IMG/VR virus record: IMGVR_UViG_3300008113_001129 | Coordinates: 1 to 26,414 of that record | Source: a virus | Direction: 5' to 3' (one strand) | Length of the DNA: 26,414 bases | Shown: positions 2,812-10,009 of the stretch, piece by piece | How the letters are laid out: each line of letters opens with the position of its first letter | Position numbering within the stretch: position 1 is the first letter of the stretch | Program-made: the position numbers and the translations under genes | The notes under the pieces: model-generated | The model's input: the letters and a program-made list of their open reading frames with translations, nothing else | Database searches by the model: none | Told to the model about the DNA's origin: nothing

Positions 2812-3233
2812 TTTCAAAAGAGACTTATACCAAAATATTTCTACAACAAAAAGACCGCTCAACTGATCCTGCTAATGTAAAGTTACACCTATTCAAATGG
2901 TGGCAAAGTCATCGCTCAAAAGACATAGGCGGATTGAGACTAAGCGACGACGGATTTGAGTTCTTGCAAAAAGAACTGGAACTACAATGCTACGAAATTC
3001 CGTTTACTGAGCCAATCGATTTGAGTCCTCAAACTATCATATTTTTTGATAGAAGCATGGACAGTCCATACTACTTAACAAACCAAAGTATTACTGTATT
3101 CTCTGAACGCAAGAGTTTTGAGCTAATGTTGTTTTCTGACGACATTCGTAAATATGGACTAATTAAGGCTATGAATAAGCAGGATAGCCAAAATGACAAA
3201 ATAGAAGAAAATACTGTTGACAGCGACGACTAA
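2808..3233 (+). CDS. conserved phage protein of unknown function
   Basis: This encodes 141 residues, coupled to the preceding gene by an ATGA overlap. Notable stretches are KETYTKIFLQQKDRS, VKLHLFKWWQSHRSKDIGGLRLSDDGFEF, IIFFDRSMDSPYYL, FELMLFSDDIRKYGL and a hydrophilic acidic tail that ends ENTVDSDD. The pattern YTKIFL...LHLFKWW...GGLRL...FE occurs in uncharacterised T4-like cyanophage proteins as I remember them, and no activity is known to me. No membrane segment or catalytic motif is visible. The end of this gene carries the -35 box of the promoter for the downstream AAA+ gene. Confidence 0.72.
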   Translation: MISKETYTKIFLQQKDRSTDPANVKLHLFKWWQSHRSKDIGGLRLSDDGFEFLQKELELQCYEIPFTEPIDLSPQTIIFFDRSMDSPYYLTNQSITVFSERKSFELMLFSDDIRKYGLIKAMNKQDSQNDKIEENTVDSDD

Positions 3234-3245
3234 TGACACTATAAT
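3217..3245 (+). promoter_or_regulatory. consensus sigma-70 promoter of the MoxR-like gene
   Basis: TTGACA at 3217-3222 and TATAAT at 3240-3245 are separated by exactly 17 bases, a perfect match to the bacterial housekeeping consensus. The -35 box lies in the last codons of the preceding gene. Transcription should start near 3252, about 40 bases before the ATG at 3292, which has AGGAG at 3282-3286. Host RNA polymerase should read it without phage factors. Confidence 0.85.
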
Positions 3246-3291: not shown

Positions 3292-4383
3292 ATGAGCGAA
3301 ATTAGTTCACGTACCGTTGGCCCTAAGGCAGCTAAAAAATCTTTGCGCCGTGCTTTTAAAGCCAATCGTCCTTTGTTCCTTTGGGGTCCTCCAGGTATCG
3401 GTAAATCCGATATCGTTAAGCAAATGGGTGAAGAACTCAATGCTCACGTAATTGACATTCGCCTGTCACTATGGGAACCTACTGATATTAAAGGTATTCC
3501 GTATTTTGATAGCAACGCTAACCGCATGAACTGGGCTCCGCCTATTGAGTTGCCCGATGCTGAAATGGCTGCTCAGCATGACAAGATCATCTTGTTTATG
3601 GACGAAATGAACTCTGCGGCTCCTAGCGTACAGGCAGCGGCTTATCAGCTGGTTTTGAATCGTCGTGTTGGTACTTATCGCTTGCCCGACAACGTGCTCA
3701 TCGTTGCCGCTGGTAACCGTGAAACTGACAAAGGTGTTACTTACCGTATGCCTGCTCCGTTGGCTAACCGTTTTGTTCACTTGGAAATGAAAGTTGACTG
3801 GGACGACTACTTTGGTTGGGCTGTTGACAATCGTATTCACAAAGACGTAGTCGGCTTCTTAACATTCTCTAAGAAGGACTTATACGACTTTGATCCTAAG
3901 AGTGCATCACGTGCCTTTGCTACTCCTCGTTCTTGGACGTTTGTGTCTGAGTTGTTGTTTGATGACGAAGAAGATACAGATACATTGACCGATTTGATCT
4001 CGGGTGCAGTTGGTGAGGGTTTGGCTGTTAAGTTTATGGCTCACCGTAAAGTTTCTTCTAAGCTTCCTAATCCTACAGACATTCTTAAGGGCAAGGTTAA
4101 GAAAATGGACACTAAGGAAATTAGTGCCATGTACTCTTTGACTGTGTCGTTATGCTATGAGCTCAAAGATGCTAGCGATAAGAATGCCAAAGACTGGAAC
4201 GATCAAGTTAACTGCTTCTTTGAGTTTATGATGACTAACTTCGAAACTGAGTTAGTTGTTATGGGTACCAAACTTGCATTGACTCAATATCAGTTGCCTT
4301 TGGATCCAGACGAGATCAAGTGTTTCGACGACTTCCATGCCAAATACGGCAAGTATATTGCGGCTGCTACTGAAAAGAAATAA
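3292..4383 (+). CDS. MoxR-type AAA+ ATPase
   Basis: This encodes 363 residues. Walker A is GPPGIGKS (32-39), Walker B is ILFMDEMN (100-107), sensor 1 is AAGNRETD (139-146), and the arginine-finger region PAPLANRFVHLE follows at about 154-164. The order and wording fit the MoxR branch of AAA+ proteins. In bacteria, MoxR ATPases work with VWA-domain partners to remodel or activate target proteins. RavA-ViaA and the MoxR/CoxE pairs are examples. Such a partner is encoded next door at 4456. The gene has its own perfect promoter and AGGAG at 3282-3286. All 16 arginine codons are CGT or CGC, while neighbouring genes use AGA freely, which points to high expression or a different origin. The C-terminal third (YSLTVSLCYELKDAS onward) carries no motif that I recognise. 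Confidence 0.9.
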   Translation: MSEISSRTVGPKAAKKSLRRAFKANRPLFLWGPPGIGKSDIVKQMGEELNAHVIDIRLSLWEPTDIKGIPYFDSNANRMNWAPPIELPDAEMAAQHDKIILFMDEMNSAAPSVQAAAYQLVLNRRVGTYRLPDNVLIVAAGNRETDKGVTYRMPAPLANRFVHLEMKVDWDDYFGWAVDNRIHKDVVGFLTFSKKDLYDFDPKSASRAFATPRSWTFVSELLFDDEEDTDTLTDLISGAVGEGLAVKFMAHRKVSSKLPNPTDILKGKVKKMDTKEISAMYSLTVSLCYELKDASDKNAKDWNDQVNCFFEFMMTNFETELVVMGTKLALTQYQLPLDPDEIKCFDDFHAKYGKYIAAATEKK

Positions 4384-4400: not shown

Positions 4401-4429
4401 TTGACAGGGTCTTCGGACCCTGTTATAAT
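4401..4429 (+). promoter_or_regulatory. consensus sigma-70 promoter with a palindromic spacer
   Basis: TTGACA at 4401-4406 and TATAAT at 4424-4429 are again exactly 17 bases apart. The whole spacer is occupied by an inverted repeat (4404-4423). Transcription should start near 4436, some 20 bases before the ATG at 4456, with AGGAG at 4445-4449 between them. It lies in the 72-base gap between the MoxR-like and VWA genes, so the second gene can be transcribed on its own. Confidence 0.85.
4404..4423 (+). terminator. UUCG-capped hairpin after the MoxR-like gene
   Basis: ACAGGGTC at 4404-4411 pairs perfectly with GACCCTGT at 4416-4423 around the very stable tetraloop TTCG (4412-4415). It begins 21 bases after the MoxR-like stop codon. 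The following bases (TATAATATATAC) are AT-rich but not a T tract, so it may be a weak terminator, a 3'-end stabiliser of the MoxR mRNA, or a processing site. Its arms also overlap the last half of the -35 box. Confidence 0.6.
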
Positions 4430-4455
4430 ATATACTATATAAACAGGAGCAAAAT

Positions 4456-5625
4456 ATGAGCAATCTCGATCCTATTGTAGATAAAATTGTAATCGCCCGG
4501 GTTGGACTGTTACTTCGTCATCCGTTTTTTGGTAACATGGCTACTCGTCTTAAAATTGTAGAAGCTAGCGAGTGGTGCGCTACTGCCGCAACAGACGGAC
4601 GTCATCTATATTATAGCAAAGACTTCTTTCAAGACCTTACAGTTAAACAGGTTGAGTTTGTTGTAGCACACGAAATCCTACACAATGTTTTTGAGCATAT
4701 GCTCCGAGTAGAAGGTCGTGATCGTAGTATTTGGAATGCCGCGGCAGACTATAGTGTTAACGGTACTCTTGTACGTGACAAGATTGGCGAAGTTCCCCCT
4801 AAGATCAAAATCTTCCACGATACCAAACACTACGGTAAAAGCACTGAACAAATCTATGACGAAATTTACAACGACATGGATGAGCAAGAATTGAGTGCGT
4901 TGGGTCAATTGCTCGACGAACACATTGACTGGGAAAAGGACGGAAAAGGTAATCGTCCACAGTACAGCAAAGAAGAACTCAAACAGATTCGTGACGAGAT
5001 CAAAGAACAAATGATGGCGGCTGCTCAGGCGGCAGGTGCAGGTAATACTCCTGCCGAGATCCAACGTATGATCCGTGAACTCACTGAGCCTAAGATGAAC
5101 TGGCGTGAAATTCTGCGCCAGCAAATTCAAAGCACTATTAAAAACGATTATACCTTTATGCGTCCTAACCGCAAGGCTTGGCACATGAACGCTATTCTTC
5201 CAGGTACTAACTTTGATGAAACTATTGACATCTGTGTTGCTATTGATATGTCAGGTTCTATCGGAGACGATCAAGCTAAAGACTTTATTTCAGAAGTCAA
5301 AGGCATTATGGACGAGTACAAAGAATACAAGATTAAATTGTGGTGCTTTGATACTAGAGTTTATAACGAACAAGACTTTGACGGCTACGGTGCCGACATT
5401 ATGGAGTATGAAGTAATGGGCGGTGGTGGTACTGAGTTTATGGCTAATTGGGACTACATGAAAGAGAATGATATTAGTCCTAAAAAGTTCATTATGTTCA
5501 CCGACGGTTATCCATACGGTTCATGGGGTGACGAAAACTACTGTGACACATTCTTTGTGATCCACGGTAACAATACTATTGTGCCTCCATTCGGTGCTCA
5601 CGCATACTATGAATTTAAAGATTGA
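4456..5625 (+). CDS. putative metallopeptidase with C-terminal VWA domain, MoxR partner
   Basis: This encodes 389 residues in two domains. The N-terminal half carries the zinc-peptidase motif HEILH (72-76) in FVVAHEILHNVFEHM, followed by WNAAADYSVN (93-102), whose Asp may be a further ligand. A charged linker lies at about 140-240. The C-terminal half is a von Willebrand A domain with a full metal-ion-dependent adhesion site: DMSGS (264-268), GGGGT (322-326) and FTDG (348-351). This arrangement corresponds to the pairing of a putative metallopeptidase domain with a VWA-like domain known from bacterial DUF2201 proteins, which often sit beside MoxR ATPases. The neighbouring ATPase probably drives or regulates it. 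Whether the peptidase is active or the motif is structural cannot be told from sequence. It ends 17 bases inside the next gene. Confidence 0.88.
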   Translation: MSNLDPIVDKIVIARVGLLLRHPFFGNMATRLKIVEASEWCATAATDGRHLYYSKDFFQDLTVKQVEFVVAHEILHNVFEHMLRVEGRDRSIWNAAADYSVNGTLVRDKIGEVPPKIKIFHDTKHYGKSTEQIYDEIYNDMDEQELSALGQLLDEHIDWEKDGKGNRPQYSKEELKQIRDEIKEQMMAAAQAAGAGNTPAEIQRMIRELTEPKMNWREILRQQIQSTIKNDYTFMRPNRKAWHMNAILPGTNFDETIDICVAIDMSGSIGDDQAKDFISEVKGIMDEYKEYKIKLWCFDTRVYNEQDFDGYGADIMEYEVMGGGGTEFMANWDYMKENDISPKKFIMFTDGYPYGSWGDENYCDTFFVIHGNNTIVPPFGAHAYYEFKD

Positions 5626-8268: not shown

Positions 8269-8948
8269 ATGTCAAACTTTTATCCTATTCACAGCCAACA
8301 GAAGAATTTACAAACTTAGGAATTGCTGACGCTCAAGAACTTGTTGCTTACTGTGCTAGAGTTTCAAATCCGAGTAATCAACTTAATACCGAAACTTCAG
8401 AAAAGCTTATTCGCTATCTTATTAAACACCAGCACTGGAGTCCGTTAGAAATGGTGTCGGCTTGTTTAGAGATTACAACAACAAGGGACATTGCAAGGCA
8501 GATTCTACGCCATCGTAGTTTTAGTTTTCAAGAGTTTAGTCAACGATACGCAGACCCTACAAAGGACCTTAGCTTTGTTACAAGAGAAGCTAGGTTACAA
8601 GACACAAAAAATAGACAAAACAGTATAGAAATTGATCGTCTAAATGAAGAACATACTGCTATCGAGTGTGAATGGTACGAACGTCAAATAGATTTAATTG
8701 AATACGTTCGAGATACGTATACTTGGGCTGTTGCTAACGGTATTGCTAAAGAACAAGCCCGAGCTGTATTACCAGAAGGATTAATGGAAAGTCGTTTATA
8801 TATGAACGGTACACTACGTAGCTGGATTCATTTTATTGAATTACGTAGCGGCAACGGTACACAAAAAGAACATCAGGAAGTAGCAAGAGCTTGTGCTTCT
8901 GTAATAGCTTCAGTATTCCCGTTAACTTTAGATTTAGTTTCTTCTTGA
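8265..8948 (+). CDS. thyX: flavin-dependent thymidylate synthase ThyX
   Basis: This encodes 227 residues. The family signature is present as RHRSFSFQEFSQRY (82-95). It is preceded by KHQHWSPLEM (54-63), which corresponds to the conserved His-rich segment. ARAVLPEGL (165-173) and LRSWIHFIELRSGNGTQKEHQEVA (184-207) complete the FAD/dUMP site. ThyX makes dTMP from dUMP using FAD, NADPH and methylene-tetrahydrofolate, and phages use it to supply thymidine for AT-rich DNA. It starts within the stop of the oxygenase gene. The last 76 bases overlap the 3' end of the opposing gene. The hairpins at 8970-9002 and 9028-9060 could end its transcript. Confidence 0.95.
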   Translation: MNVKLLSYSQPTEEFTNLGIADAQELVAYCARVSNPSNQLNTETSEKLIRYLIKHQHWSPLEMVSACLEITTTRDIARQILRHRSFSFQEFSQRYADPTKDLSFVTREARLQDTKNRQNSIEIDRLNEEHTAIECEWYERQIDLIEYVRDTYTWAVANGIAKEQARAVLPEGLMESRLYMNGTLRSWIHFIELRSGNGTQKEHQEVARACASVIASVFPLTLDLVSS

Positions 8949-10009
8949 TCTAAAAACATTTCTGGAGGAAACAATTTGATGTGTGCCTCAAATTGTTCTT
9001 TTAACCAGTTGTAATCATTAATCATAGCAAGGGCGTTTTTATCGCCCTTGTATGTTTTTCCGTACCATTCCCCTGCGCTGGCGCCACCTTTTACGTATTC
9101 ACCTAAGGGTCGATTTCCACCTCGTGATGTCCAAGCTAACAGACGTTCATCTGTTTCTGTTTGTATTTGTCTATCAATAACGCCCGATGCTAGTTTAACA
9201 CATTCTCTAAATGCACTGCGCCATGCATTTAAAGGACTAGTTGCAAAATTATTAATATTTGAAGAAATTTCATTCATTATTTTAATTTTTGCACCGATAC
9301 TAGTAGTAATGTCGACTGCTGTTGTTTCATCTGCGTTTAAAATTAAATGTTTAGGAATTAATTTGATTCCACCGTAACCGTATTCTAACATGTTGATGAG
9401 ATTAACACTTTTCCATATATGTACTACATCAAAATCCCATTCAGGAACTCTATAATTAAAATCAAAAGAATCTAACACTGTTGCATCAGCATCAATAACC
9501 CAGAAAAAATCTGTACTAGATTGTTTTGCAGCCGCTAAATGTGCATTAAAAATTCCCTTAACACCTTGAATATGTTTAGTATCAGGCCGCTTTTCTTTTA
9601 GATATTGTAAATTTTTGTCTGCAATACTTTCGTCAAACGATAGGAAAAATACATCATAGTGCCTAAATACTAAATTAGATACACTAATAACTTTTTTATT
9701 TTCAATTGTAGTGCTAGTACCTAGATCTACGTTCTTAGGAATTAGATAAATTTCAGCAGTGATAGATTTAAATACATGTACAACTGATTGATCCCAGGTT
9801 TCAATATTATACGTTAGTAGGGTATCATAACCGGCAATATCAACATCTATTAACCAGAAAAAATTTGTCTTAGAAGTTGCCTTAACTTTATTAACTAATT
9901 CTACAATATTGCTTACACATTTTTCAAATTTTGCATGTGGAAATCTTTCCGATAAATGAGCAATAACTTCGTCATTTTTCTTCTTATAGTAAAATATGAT
10001 ATCTTTCAT
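8873..10009 (-). CDS. glycosyltransferase-like protein with internal duplication
   Basis: This encodes 378 residues. Two copies of a module are visible. Residues 3-92 contain FFWLIDVDIAGYD, VVHVFKS and YLIPK. Residues 118-220 contain FFWVIDADATVLD, VVHIWKS, GYGGIKLIPK and, before these, the opening DVFFLSFDESIADKN and GVKGIFNAH. The DxD motif (DVD 55-57, DAD 173-175) is the metal and sugar-nucleotide site of GT-A glycosyltransferases. After the second module, SPLNAWRSAFRECVKLAS (258-275) matches the same segment of the neighbour at 10006. I recall related T4-like cyanophage proteins of unproven activity. The first module lacks the GYGG segment and may be non-catalytic. The C-terminus lies antisense to thyX. 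It is coupled to the upstream gene by ATGA. Confidence 0.68.
   Translation of the reverse strand: MKDIIFYYKKKNDEVIAHLSERFPHAKFEKCVSNIVELVNKVKATSKTNFFWLIDVDIAGYDTLLTYNIETWDQSVVHVFKSITAEIYLIPKNVDLGTSTTIENKKVISVSNLVFRHYDVFFLSFDESIADKNLQYLKEKRPDTKHIQGVKGIFNAHLAAAKQSSTDFFWVIDADATVLDSFDFNYRVPEWDFDVVHIWKSVNLINMLEYGYGGIKLIPKHLILNADETTAVDITTSIGAKIKIMNEISSNINNFATSPLNAWRSAFRECVKLASGVIDRQIQTETDERLLAWTSRGGNRPLGEYVKGGASAGEWYGKTYKGDKNALAMINDYNWLKEQFEAHIKLFPPEMFLDQEETKSKVNGNTEAITEAQALATS
8970..9002 (+). terminator. candidate terminator of thyX (first hairpin)
   Basis: AACAATTTGA (8970-8979) and TCAAATTGTT (8988-8997) are a perfect 10-bp inverted repeat with an 8-base loop, followed by C and four T's. It starts 22 bases after the thyX stop. 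The stem is AT-rich, so it would be moderate in strength. It lies within the coding sequence of the opposing gene. Confidence 0.5.
9028..9060 (+). terminator. candidate terminator downstream of thyX (second hairpin)
   Basis: CAAGGGCG (9028-9035) and CGCCCTTG (9043-9050) form a perfect GC-rich 8-bp stem with the loop TTTTTAT. TATGTTTTTC follows, which gives a T tract. Read on the + strand it looks like an intrinsic terminator about 80 bases after the thyX stop. Read on the - strand it codes for part of the glycosyltransferase-like protein. Confidence 0.6.

Follow-up and report, generated by a model that had tools for sequence, protein, structure and literature searches.

In several jumbo phages (PA5oct, Atu_ph07, CBB, GAP32, RaK2, 121Q, phage G and others), the gene encoding a MoxR-like ATPase is followed by a terminator with a GC-rich hairpin located just past the stop codon. 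The element considered here lies at positions 4401-4429 of the window, i.e., the whole stretch of 26,414 nucleotides that was analysed; its source record, IMGVR_UViG_3300008113_001129, is a 26.4 kb virus fragment. It follows the same gene at the same place and also contains a GC-rich hairpin. However, the jumbo-phage terminators possess a T run and no internal promoter, whereas the tail of the element is a -10 region and its hairpin fills a promoter spacer. Among the T4-like phages, UUCG-capped intergenic terminators are present in Gaprivervirus VR26 and SP18, Morganella phage MP1 and Mosigvirus ESCO47, where stems of the GGACC-UUCG-GGUCC type stand right past stop codons. These resemble the element but are followed by U-tracts (TTTATAAT in ESCO47), and no -35 box overlies their stems.

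Among promoters, the closest are consensus sigma-70 phage promoters, which combine TTGACA-N17 with a TATAAT-like -10 box and precede gp32 of cyanophages P-SSM5 and DSL-LC02 and the MoxR gene of the family studied here. The P-SSM5 and DSL-LC02 gp32 promoters and the MoxR promoter carry no hairpin, whereas the promoters of the same kind of gene, gp32, at three loci of the viral collection (L175, L187 and L252) do. Promoters of the phage N4 virion RNA polymerase are single-stranded DNA hairpins that are read by the phage polymerase and lack TTGACA and TATAAT. The element shares with them a hairpin within a promoter and differs in that both of its sigma-70 boxes are perfect. The MoxR/VWA gene pair of RaK2 is annotated as N4 gp24/gp25-like.

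A further parallel is provided by polymerase reinitiation, in which the same polymerase is more readily reused when a terminator and a promoter are close together (PMC6978380, PMC6978322, PMC11347151). In the portions of these studies considered here, the terminator and the promoter are separate neighbours and sharing of bases is not described; such reuse at the present element would be hypothetical. A limited search of the open-access literature found no published description of a terminator hairpin inside the spacer between a -35 and a -10 box.

Results

Anatomy and folding of the element

The element, its two flanking genes and the MoxR promoter are on the + strand. The element has the form TTGACA-N17-TATAAT, with the -35 hexamer at 4401-4406 and the -10 hexamer at 4424-4429. 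A sigma-70 promoter is defined by TTGACA, TATAAT and a spacer of 16-18 bases; the element contains both hexamers exactly, with a spacer of 17, as an earlier note on this DNA had claimed. Two exact TTGACA-N17-TATAAT sites were found in the window, compared with 0.01 expected from dinucleotide shuffles.

The same earlier note described a perfect 8-bp, TTCG-capped stem partly covering the -35 box, and this description proved to be accurate. The stem is formed by the 5' arm ACAGGGTC (4404-4411) and the 3' arm GACCCTGT (4416-4423), which enclose the TTCG loop at 4412-4415. It begins within the -35 box, and its final base adjoins the -10 box. The outermost three pairs join the ACA of the -35 box to the TGT of the extended -10 sequence (TGn; 4421-4423), which is part of the 3' arm. 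In RNA, the loop reads C(UUCG)G, a YNMG tetraloop closed by a C-G pair on the RNA strand, and the stem is lengthened by the pairs G4403-U4424 and U4402-A4425. The minimum free energy of the element RNA was -16.5 kcal/mol, and none of 200 shuffled sequences was equally stable. The window yielded no Rfam match at the gathering score, and no tRNAs were found in it.

The upstream gene (3292-4383) encodes a MoxR-like AAA ATPase (Pfam AAA/AAA_3/AAA_5; PHROG 1297, ATPase) and ends with TAA at 4381-4383. A stable GC-rich RNA hairpin, as expected of an intrinsic terminator, is predicted 17 nt past this stop codon. The downstream gene (4456-5625) encodes a protein assigned by Pfam and PHROG as a putative metallopeptidase (DUF2201_N) with a VWA-like domain (DUF2201). 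Its ATG at 4456 is preceded by a ribosome-binding-like AGGAG region (4446-4450), the GGAG of which is conserved in relatives. The earlier note placed the start of the element 18 bases past the MoxR stop and its end 26 bases short of the next ATG, and these distances were confirmed. PHROGs and several records call the family of the downstream protein "HNH endonuclease"; Pfam finds only the DUF2201_N metallopeptidase and VWA-like domains in it, and the label is probably wrong.

No named phage was found with a MoxR-like or VWA protein above 60% identity; the best matches came from jumbo phages, PA5oct and Phosso among them, and a megablast search of the whole window against named phages gave no match.

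Conservation and covariation in the MoxR-VWA family

Loci were selected solely on the basis of protein similarity to the MoxR-like and VWA proteins, and the intergenic region was inspected afterwards. The element was found at the MoxR/VWA junction in 153 of the 154 loci among the matches listed; the counts from the viral collection are samples, and loci within the family are related to one another. At the sole exception (L122), another coding sequence precedes the VWA gene, and the element is located farther upstream on the same contig (L215). On this contig, IMGVR_UViG_3300012665_000179, the coding insert separates the element from the VWA gene, and the element remains beside MoxR. The earlier note had named a gene pair kept without its stem as one observation that would speak against it; the stem was retained along with the pair at these 153 loci.

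Among the 153 loci, there are 76 distinct versions, with 34 distinct 29-mers. In all 76 versions, TTGACA and the spacer length of 17 bases were invariant, and the -10 box was TATAAT in 62, TATACT in 13 and TACAAT in one. Eight perfect Watson-Crick pairs were present in 33 of the 34 distinct elements, and one pair was missing in the remaining element. The arm sequences fall into eight types and covary. In an alignment of 34 loci, 99.6% of the 272 cells were paired and 54 double changes were counted, so the compensatory changes that had been proposed as a check on the stem were found. The covariation score was 0.491, compared with 0.122 for shuffled data, and was destroyed when the partners were slid by one column. 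A tree of 61 VWA proteins required at least 24 arm changes and at least 25 loop changes; these counts are rough because the tree was a quick one and the phages recombine.

Within the family, no G-U intermediates were detected in the 34 aligned loci. Such a lack is atypical of RNA stems and counts against a simple RNA story; copying of one arm from the other by template switching could be the cause. Replication template switching that corrects quasipalindromes is documented (PMC7202029, PMC8604942, in the parts considered) and might keep an old palindrome perfect with no selection on RNA. The arm changes, always concerted and with no one-sided intermediates, fit such a mutational by-product. 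However, template switching would explain neither the fixed 17-base spacing nor the prevalence of one class of loops, and it would leave unexplained both the recurrence of the design after stop codons in other phages and the lack of a hairpin in the neighbouring MoxR promoter (see below). As an account of the element, it was considered extremely unlikely.

Loop classes and strand asymmetry

YNMG tetraloops form a stable class in RNA. Loops of this class capped 69 of the 76 distinct versions, whereas 1 in 16 would be expected by chance. The most frequent were TTCG (32), TGCG (10), TACG (7), TTAG (7), CTAG (3) and CACG (3), and the rarer ones were CTCG (2), CGCG (2), TCAG, TAAG and TCCG (one each). 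The other loops were TTTG (3), CTTG, TCTG, TTTA and one GNRA loop (GCAA); GNRA-capped versions of the element are also present in other phages. Among the matches listed from the whole viral collection, the reverse-complement loop (CCGAAG) in the same promoter frame was found in only 18 contigs, and none of 13 distinct sites had the stem on the antisense loop CGAA. Since the loops are of the RNA type on one strand only, it may be concluded that the strand on which the structure is read is the one that would be transcribed along with the flanking genes.

These data bear on a device acting at the DNA level, i.e., either an operator palindrome bound by a dimeric regulator or a cruciform modulating promoter opening. 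A perfect dyad between the -35 and -10 boxes occupies the classic operator position, and the lack of G-U pairs in the family would agree with such a function. However, eight arm sequences in one family leave no fixed recognition sequence, the tetraloops are strand-asymmetric, with the complementary loop absent from such stems at the sites listed, and G-U pairs do occur in elements outside the family (L187, L195, L200, L228, L531 and, twice, L206). An operator or a cruciform is therefore very unlikely, and both were rejected on account of arm variation and loop asymmetry.

The MoxR promoter as an internal control

The second perfect promoter, that of the MoxR gene itself (3217-3245), overlaps the end of the preceding gene; it has a 17-base spacer and no hairpin. 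In 27 family loci, it was kept as TTGAC(A/G/T)-N17-TATAAT (TACAAT in one case), with a freely variable spacer. The mean folding energy of the spacer was -2.7 kcal/mol for the MoxR promoter versus -16.0 kcal/mol for the element on the VWA side. By inspection, the other exact promoters in 20 large family contigs also lacked such a hairpin, with one clear exception in contig G004 (GCATGGTAAAACCATGC). Because the MoxR promoter and, with that exception, the other exact promoters inspected are devoid of the hairpin, it can be concluded that the hairpin is tied to the MoxR/VWA junction and not to promoters generally. A similar start region (ACATA..CAGT) was noted a few bases past the -10 box of both family promoters, i.e., downstream of 3245 and of 4429.

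Terminators after MoxR in distant relatives

Of 15 distant phages that encode a MoxR homologue, 12 (PA5oct, Atu_ph07, CBB, XbC2, SCTP-2, Phosso, GAP32, 121Q, RaK2, G, XaC1 and SNUABM_49) were found to carry a canonical intrinsic terminator, i.e., a hairpin followed by a T run, immediately past the stop codon of that gene. Of the other three, phiFa had a weak terminator, and Vibrio phage 2.275 and S-TIM5 had none. The hairpin in the window occupies the position held by the terminator in these distant relatives. In Sinorhizobium phage Phosso, the terminator is followed approximately 35 nt on by a TTGACA site, which may be a separate promoter.

The element itself is a poor match to the canonical form. 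The terminator scan of the window did not call it, and a U-tract, taken as at least 5 T in the 8 bases directly after the stem, was lacking, the tail being TATAATAT. The tail TATAATATATA consists entirely of A and T but is a poor U-tract, with three T in TATAAT; it comprises the -10 hexamer and the remaining ATATA at 4430-4434. In most family versions, the tail is nearly all A/T. A d'Aubenton-Carafa-type score, computed with approximate constants, was weakly positive, with a family median of 4.7 (74 of 76 versions above zero) compared with 20-51 for the twelve canonical terminators. Elsewhere in the window, hairpins were observed at 8970-8997 (10 bp) and 9028-9050 (8-9 bp, GC-rich stem), near the point where + strand genes ending at 8948 converge with - strand genes running from 8873; the scan called the hairpin at 9028-9050 a terminator.

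The weak U-tract raises the question of whether the hairpin only protects or delimits an RNA 3' end. In that case, polymerase would read through into VWA, a nuclease would cut the A/U-rich RNA after the stem, the MoxR mRNA would be shielded from 3' exonucleases, and the promoter would supply additional VWA mRNA. The very stable UUCG and GNRA caps suit this function, and the RNA-level signature described above would be expected equally. However, true U-tract terminators occupy the same place in the twelve distant relatives, most versions have a tail made up almost entirely of A and T, and in the lineage with clamp-loader-like genes (see below), the tail continues with a T-rich stretch (TATAATTTTATTTTA). 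A processed, protected end of the MoxR RNA is thus less likely than termination, and protection with no termination was regarded as unlikely.

Occurrence of the design in other phages

The hairpin-promoter design was also found outside the family, among the matches listed. With genes named by tblastn, it preceded clamp-loader-like genes (L162, L177, L200, L228 and L244), in whose lineage the tail continues as the T-rich stretch just mentioned, and gp32-like single-stranded DNA-binding protein genes at the three loci introduced above. Other junctions with the design were L172, L194, L195, L197, L206, L207, L240, L550, L577, L638, L639, L644, L650 and L651. The earlier note had remarked that no standard phage promoter of this design was known; the design in fact recurs in several phage lineages. 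The gp32 promoters of P-SSM5 and DSL-LC02, which are of the same type but hairpin-free, suggest that the hairpin was added onto existing promoters. In phages DLP6, Melnitz-3 and Bellamy, no such element was present upstream of the clamp-loader genes.

A co-directional stop codon was located within 30 nt upstream of 34 of 41 hairpin promoters outside the family, compared with 85 of 215 promoters of this type that lack the hairpin (among the matches listed; p = 3e-7, with sites that are not fully independent). A chance origin of the pairing was rejected because full pairing was present at only 6 of 133 viral TTGACA-N14-TGTTATAAT sites among the matches listed, and in two of these six the loop was AT-rich. 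The TTCG-loop pattern gave 87 matches in cellular genomes (257 Gb), and an 8-bp stem was absent from all of them; for this pattern, use of the design by bacteria was rejected.

Short-sequence searches revealed no exact copy of the element in named phages among the matches listed, and one related variant was found in Microcystis phage MaMV-DC (KF356199, 40013-40045; L690). This variant, TTGACAGGGCCCCCGCCCTGTGCTATAAT, has a 17-base spacer with a 7-bp stem that is shifted by two bases, and it is preceded by a partial duplicate, TTGACAGGGC.

In three records (L828, G030:328000-347900; L829, G021; L830, G026), early-gene-like arrays carry perfect sigma-70 promoters at intervals of a few hundred bases. 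Many of the spacers form hairpins that differ in size and loop, with a GGTAAAACC core recurring among them, and a genome-wide hairpin-promoter architecture is possible in these records. Spacers in early arrays folded more stably than shuffled sequences in G030 (-4.9 versus -2.0 kcal/mol, sd 0.3), G021 (-6.0 versus -2.2, sd 0.4), G026 (-4.4 versus -2.1, sd 0.35) and G025 (-4.4 versus -2.2, sd 0.5); the early-gene array of G027 showed no significant excess of spacer folding over shuffles. Strong spacer hairpins in the early arrays lay near an upstream stop codon in 20 of 25 cases, versus 36 of 69 (p = 0.02), and the stop codon was sometimes the TGA within TTGACA.

Discussion

The element is probably a terminator, or another former of RNA 3' ends, of the MoxR gene fused into the promoter of the VWA gene. 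The earlier note had offered several interpretations side by side; the one in which the element ends the MoxR transcript and starts the VWA transcript is best supported, by the conservation at the junction and the compensatory changes, and the operator and cruciform interpretations are disfavoured. The sequence evidence pointing to a fused terminator-promoter comprises conservation, covariation, the loops, the hairpin-free MoxR promoter, the terminators of distant relatives, the proximity to stop codons and the early arrays. The poor U-tract, the failure of the scan to flag the element, the absence of G-U intermediates in the family and the three of 15 relatives with no clear canonical terminator count against it.

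The fused element would work as follows. Polymerase leaving the MoxR gene would transcribe the stem, and the RNA would fold into a UUCG-capped hairpin of 8-10 bp. The polymerase would then be on the A/T-only tail, where the RNA-DNA hybrid would be weak and consist entirely of A and U, and the MoxR transcript would end there, with a predicted 3' end at approximately 4430-4434, the -10 region taking the place of a U-tract. In duplex form, the element would present the sigma-70 holoenzyme with a perfect promoter that includes an extended -10 sequence, and the VWA transcript would start at approximately 4437, an A located 8 nt past the last -10 base according to standard sigma-70 spacing. Since this start is downstream of the hairpin, VWA mRNA from this promoter would lack it. 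Both functions fit into 29 bp because the ACA of the consensus -35 box and the TGT of the extended -10 sequence are complementary at the distance set by an 8-bp stem and a 4-base loop. We infer termination and initiation at the element, as well as their efficiency, from sequence features.

A bolder extension, which we consider doubtful, is that the fused element acts as a terminate-and-restart switch, at which the polymerase releasing the MoxR RNA would stop on the promoter, keep or re-bind sigma and start VWA without leaving the DNA. Such switches would have evolved repeatedly in phages that use the host polymerase, relaying it between small units. With the predicted 3' end and start, the active site of the released polymerase would be only a few bases upstream of the VWA start. 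In vitro, E. coli polymerase remains on the DNA after intrinsic termination and restarts at nearby promoters, according to the sections considered of PMC6978380 and PMC6978322. In the part considered of PMC11347151, polymerase retention is argued to be of little benefit to lytic phages producing a polymerase of their own; a phage depending on the host enzyme might differ in this respect.

Terminators and promoters are usually treated as separate parts. Here, in several phage lineages, 29 bases appear to be common to both and to stand under two sets of constraints, those of duplex DNA for sigma-70 and those of RNA folding. If confirmed, the element would offer synthetic biology a very compact insulated part. 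It would also give phage annotation a searchable motif showing where one transcript ends and the next begins, and it would be a natural system for testing polymerase recycling after termination in cells.
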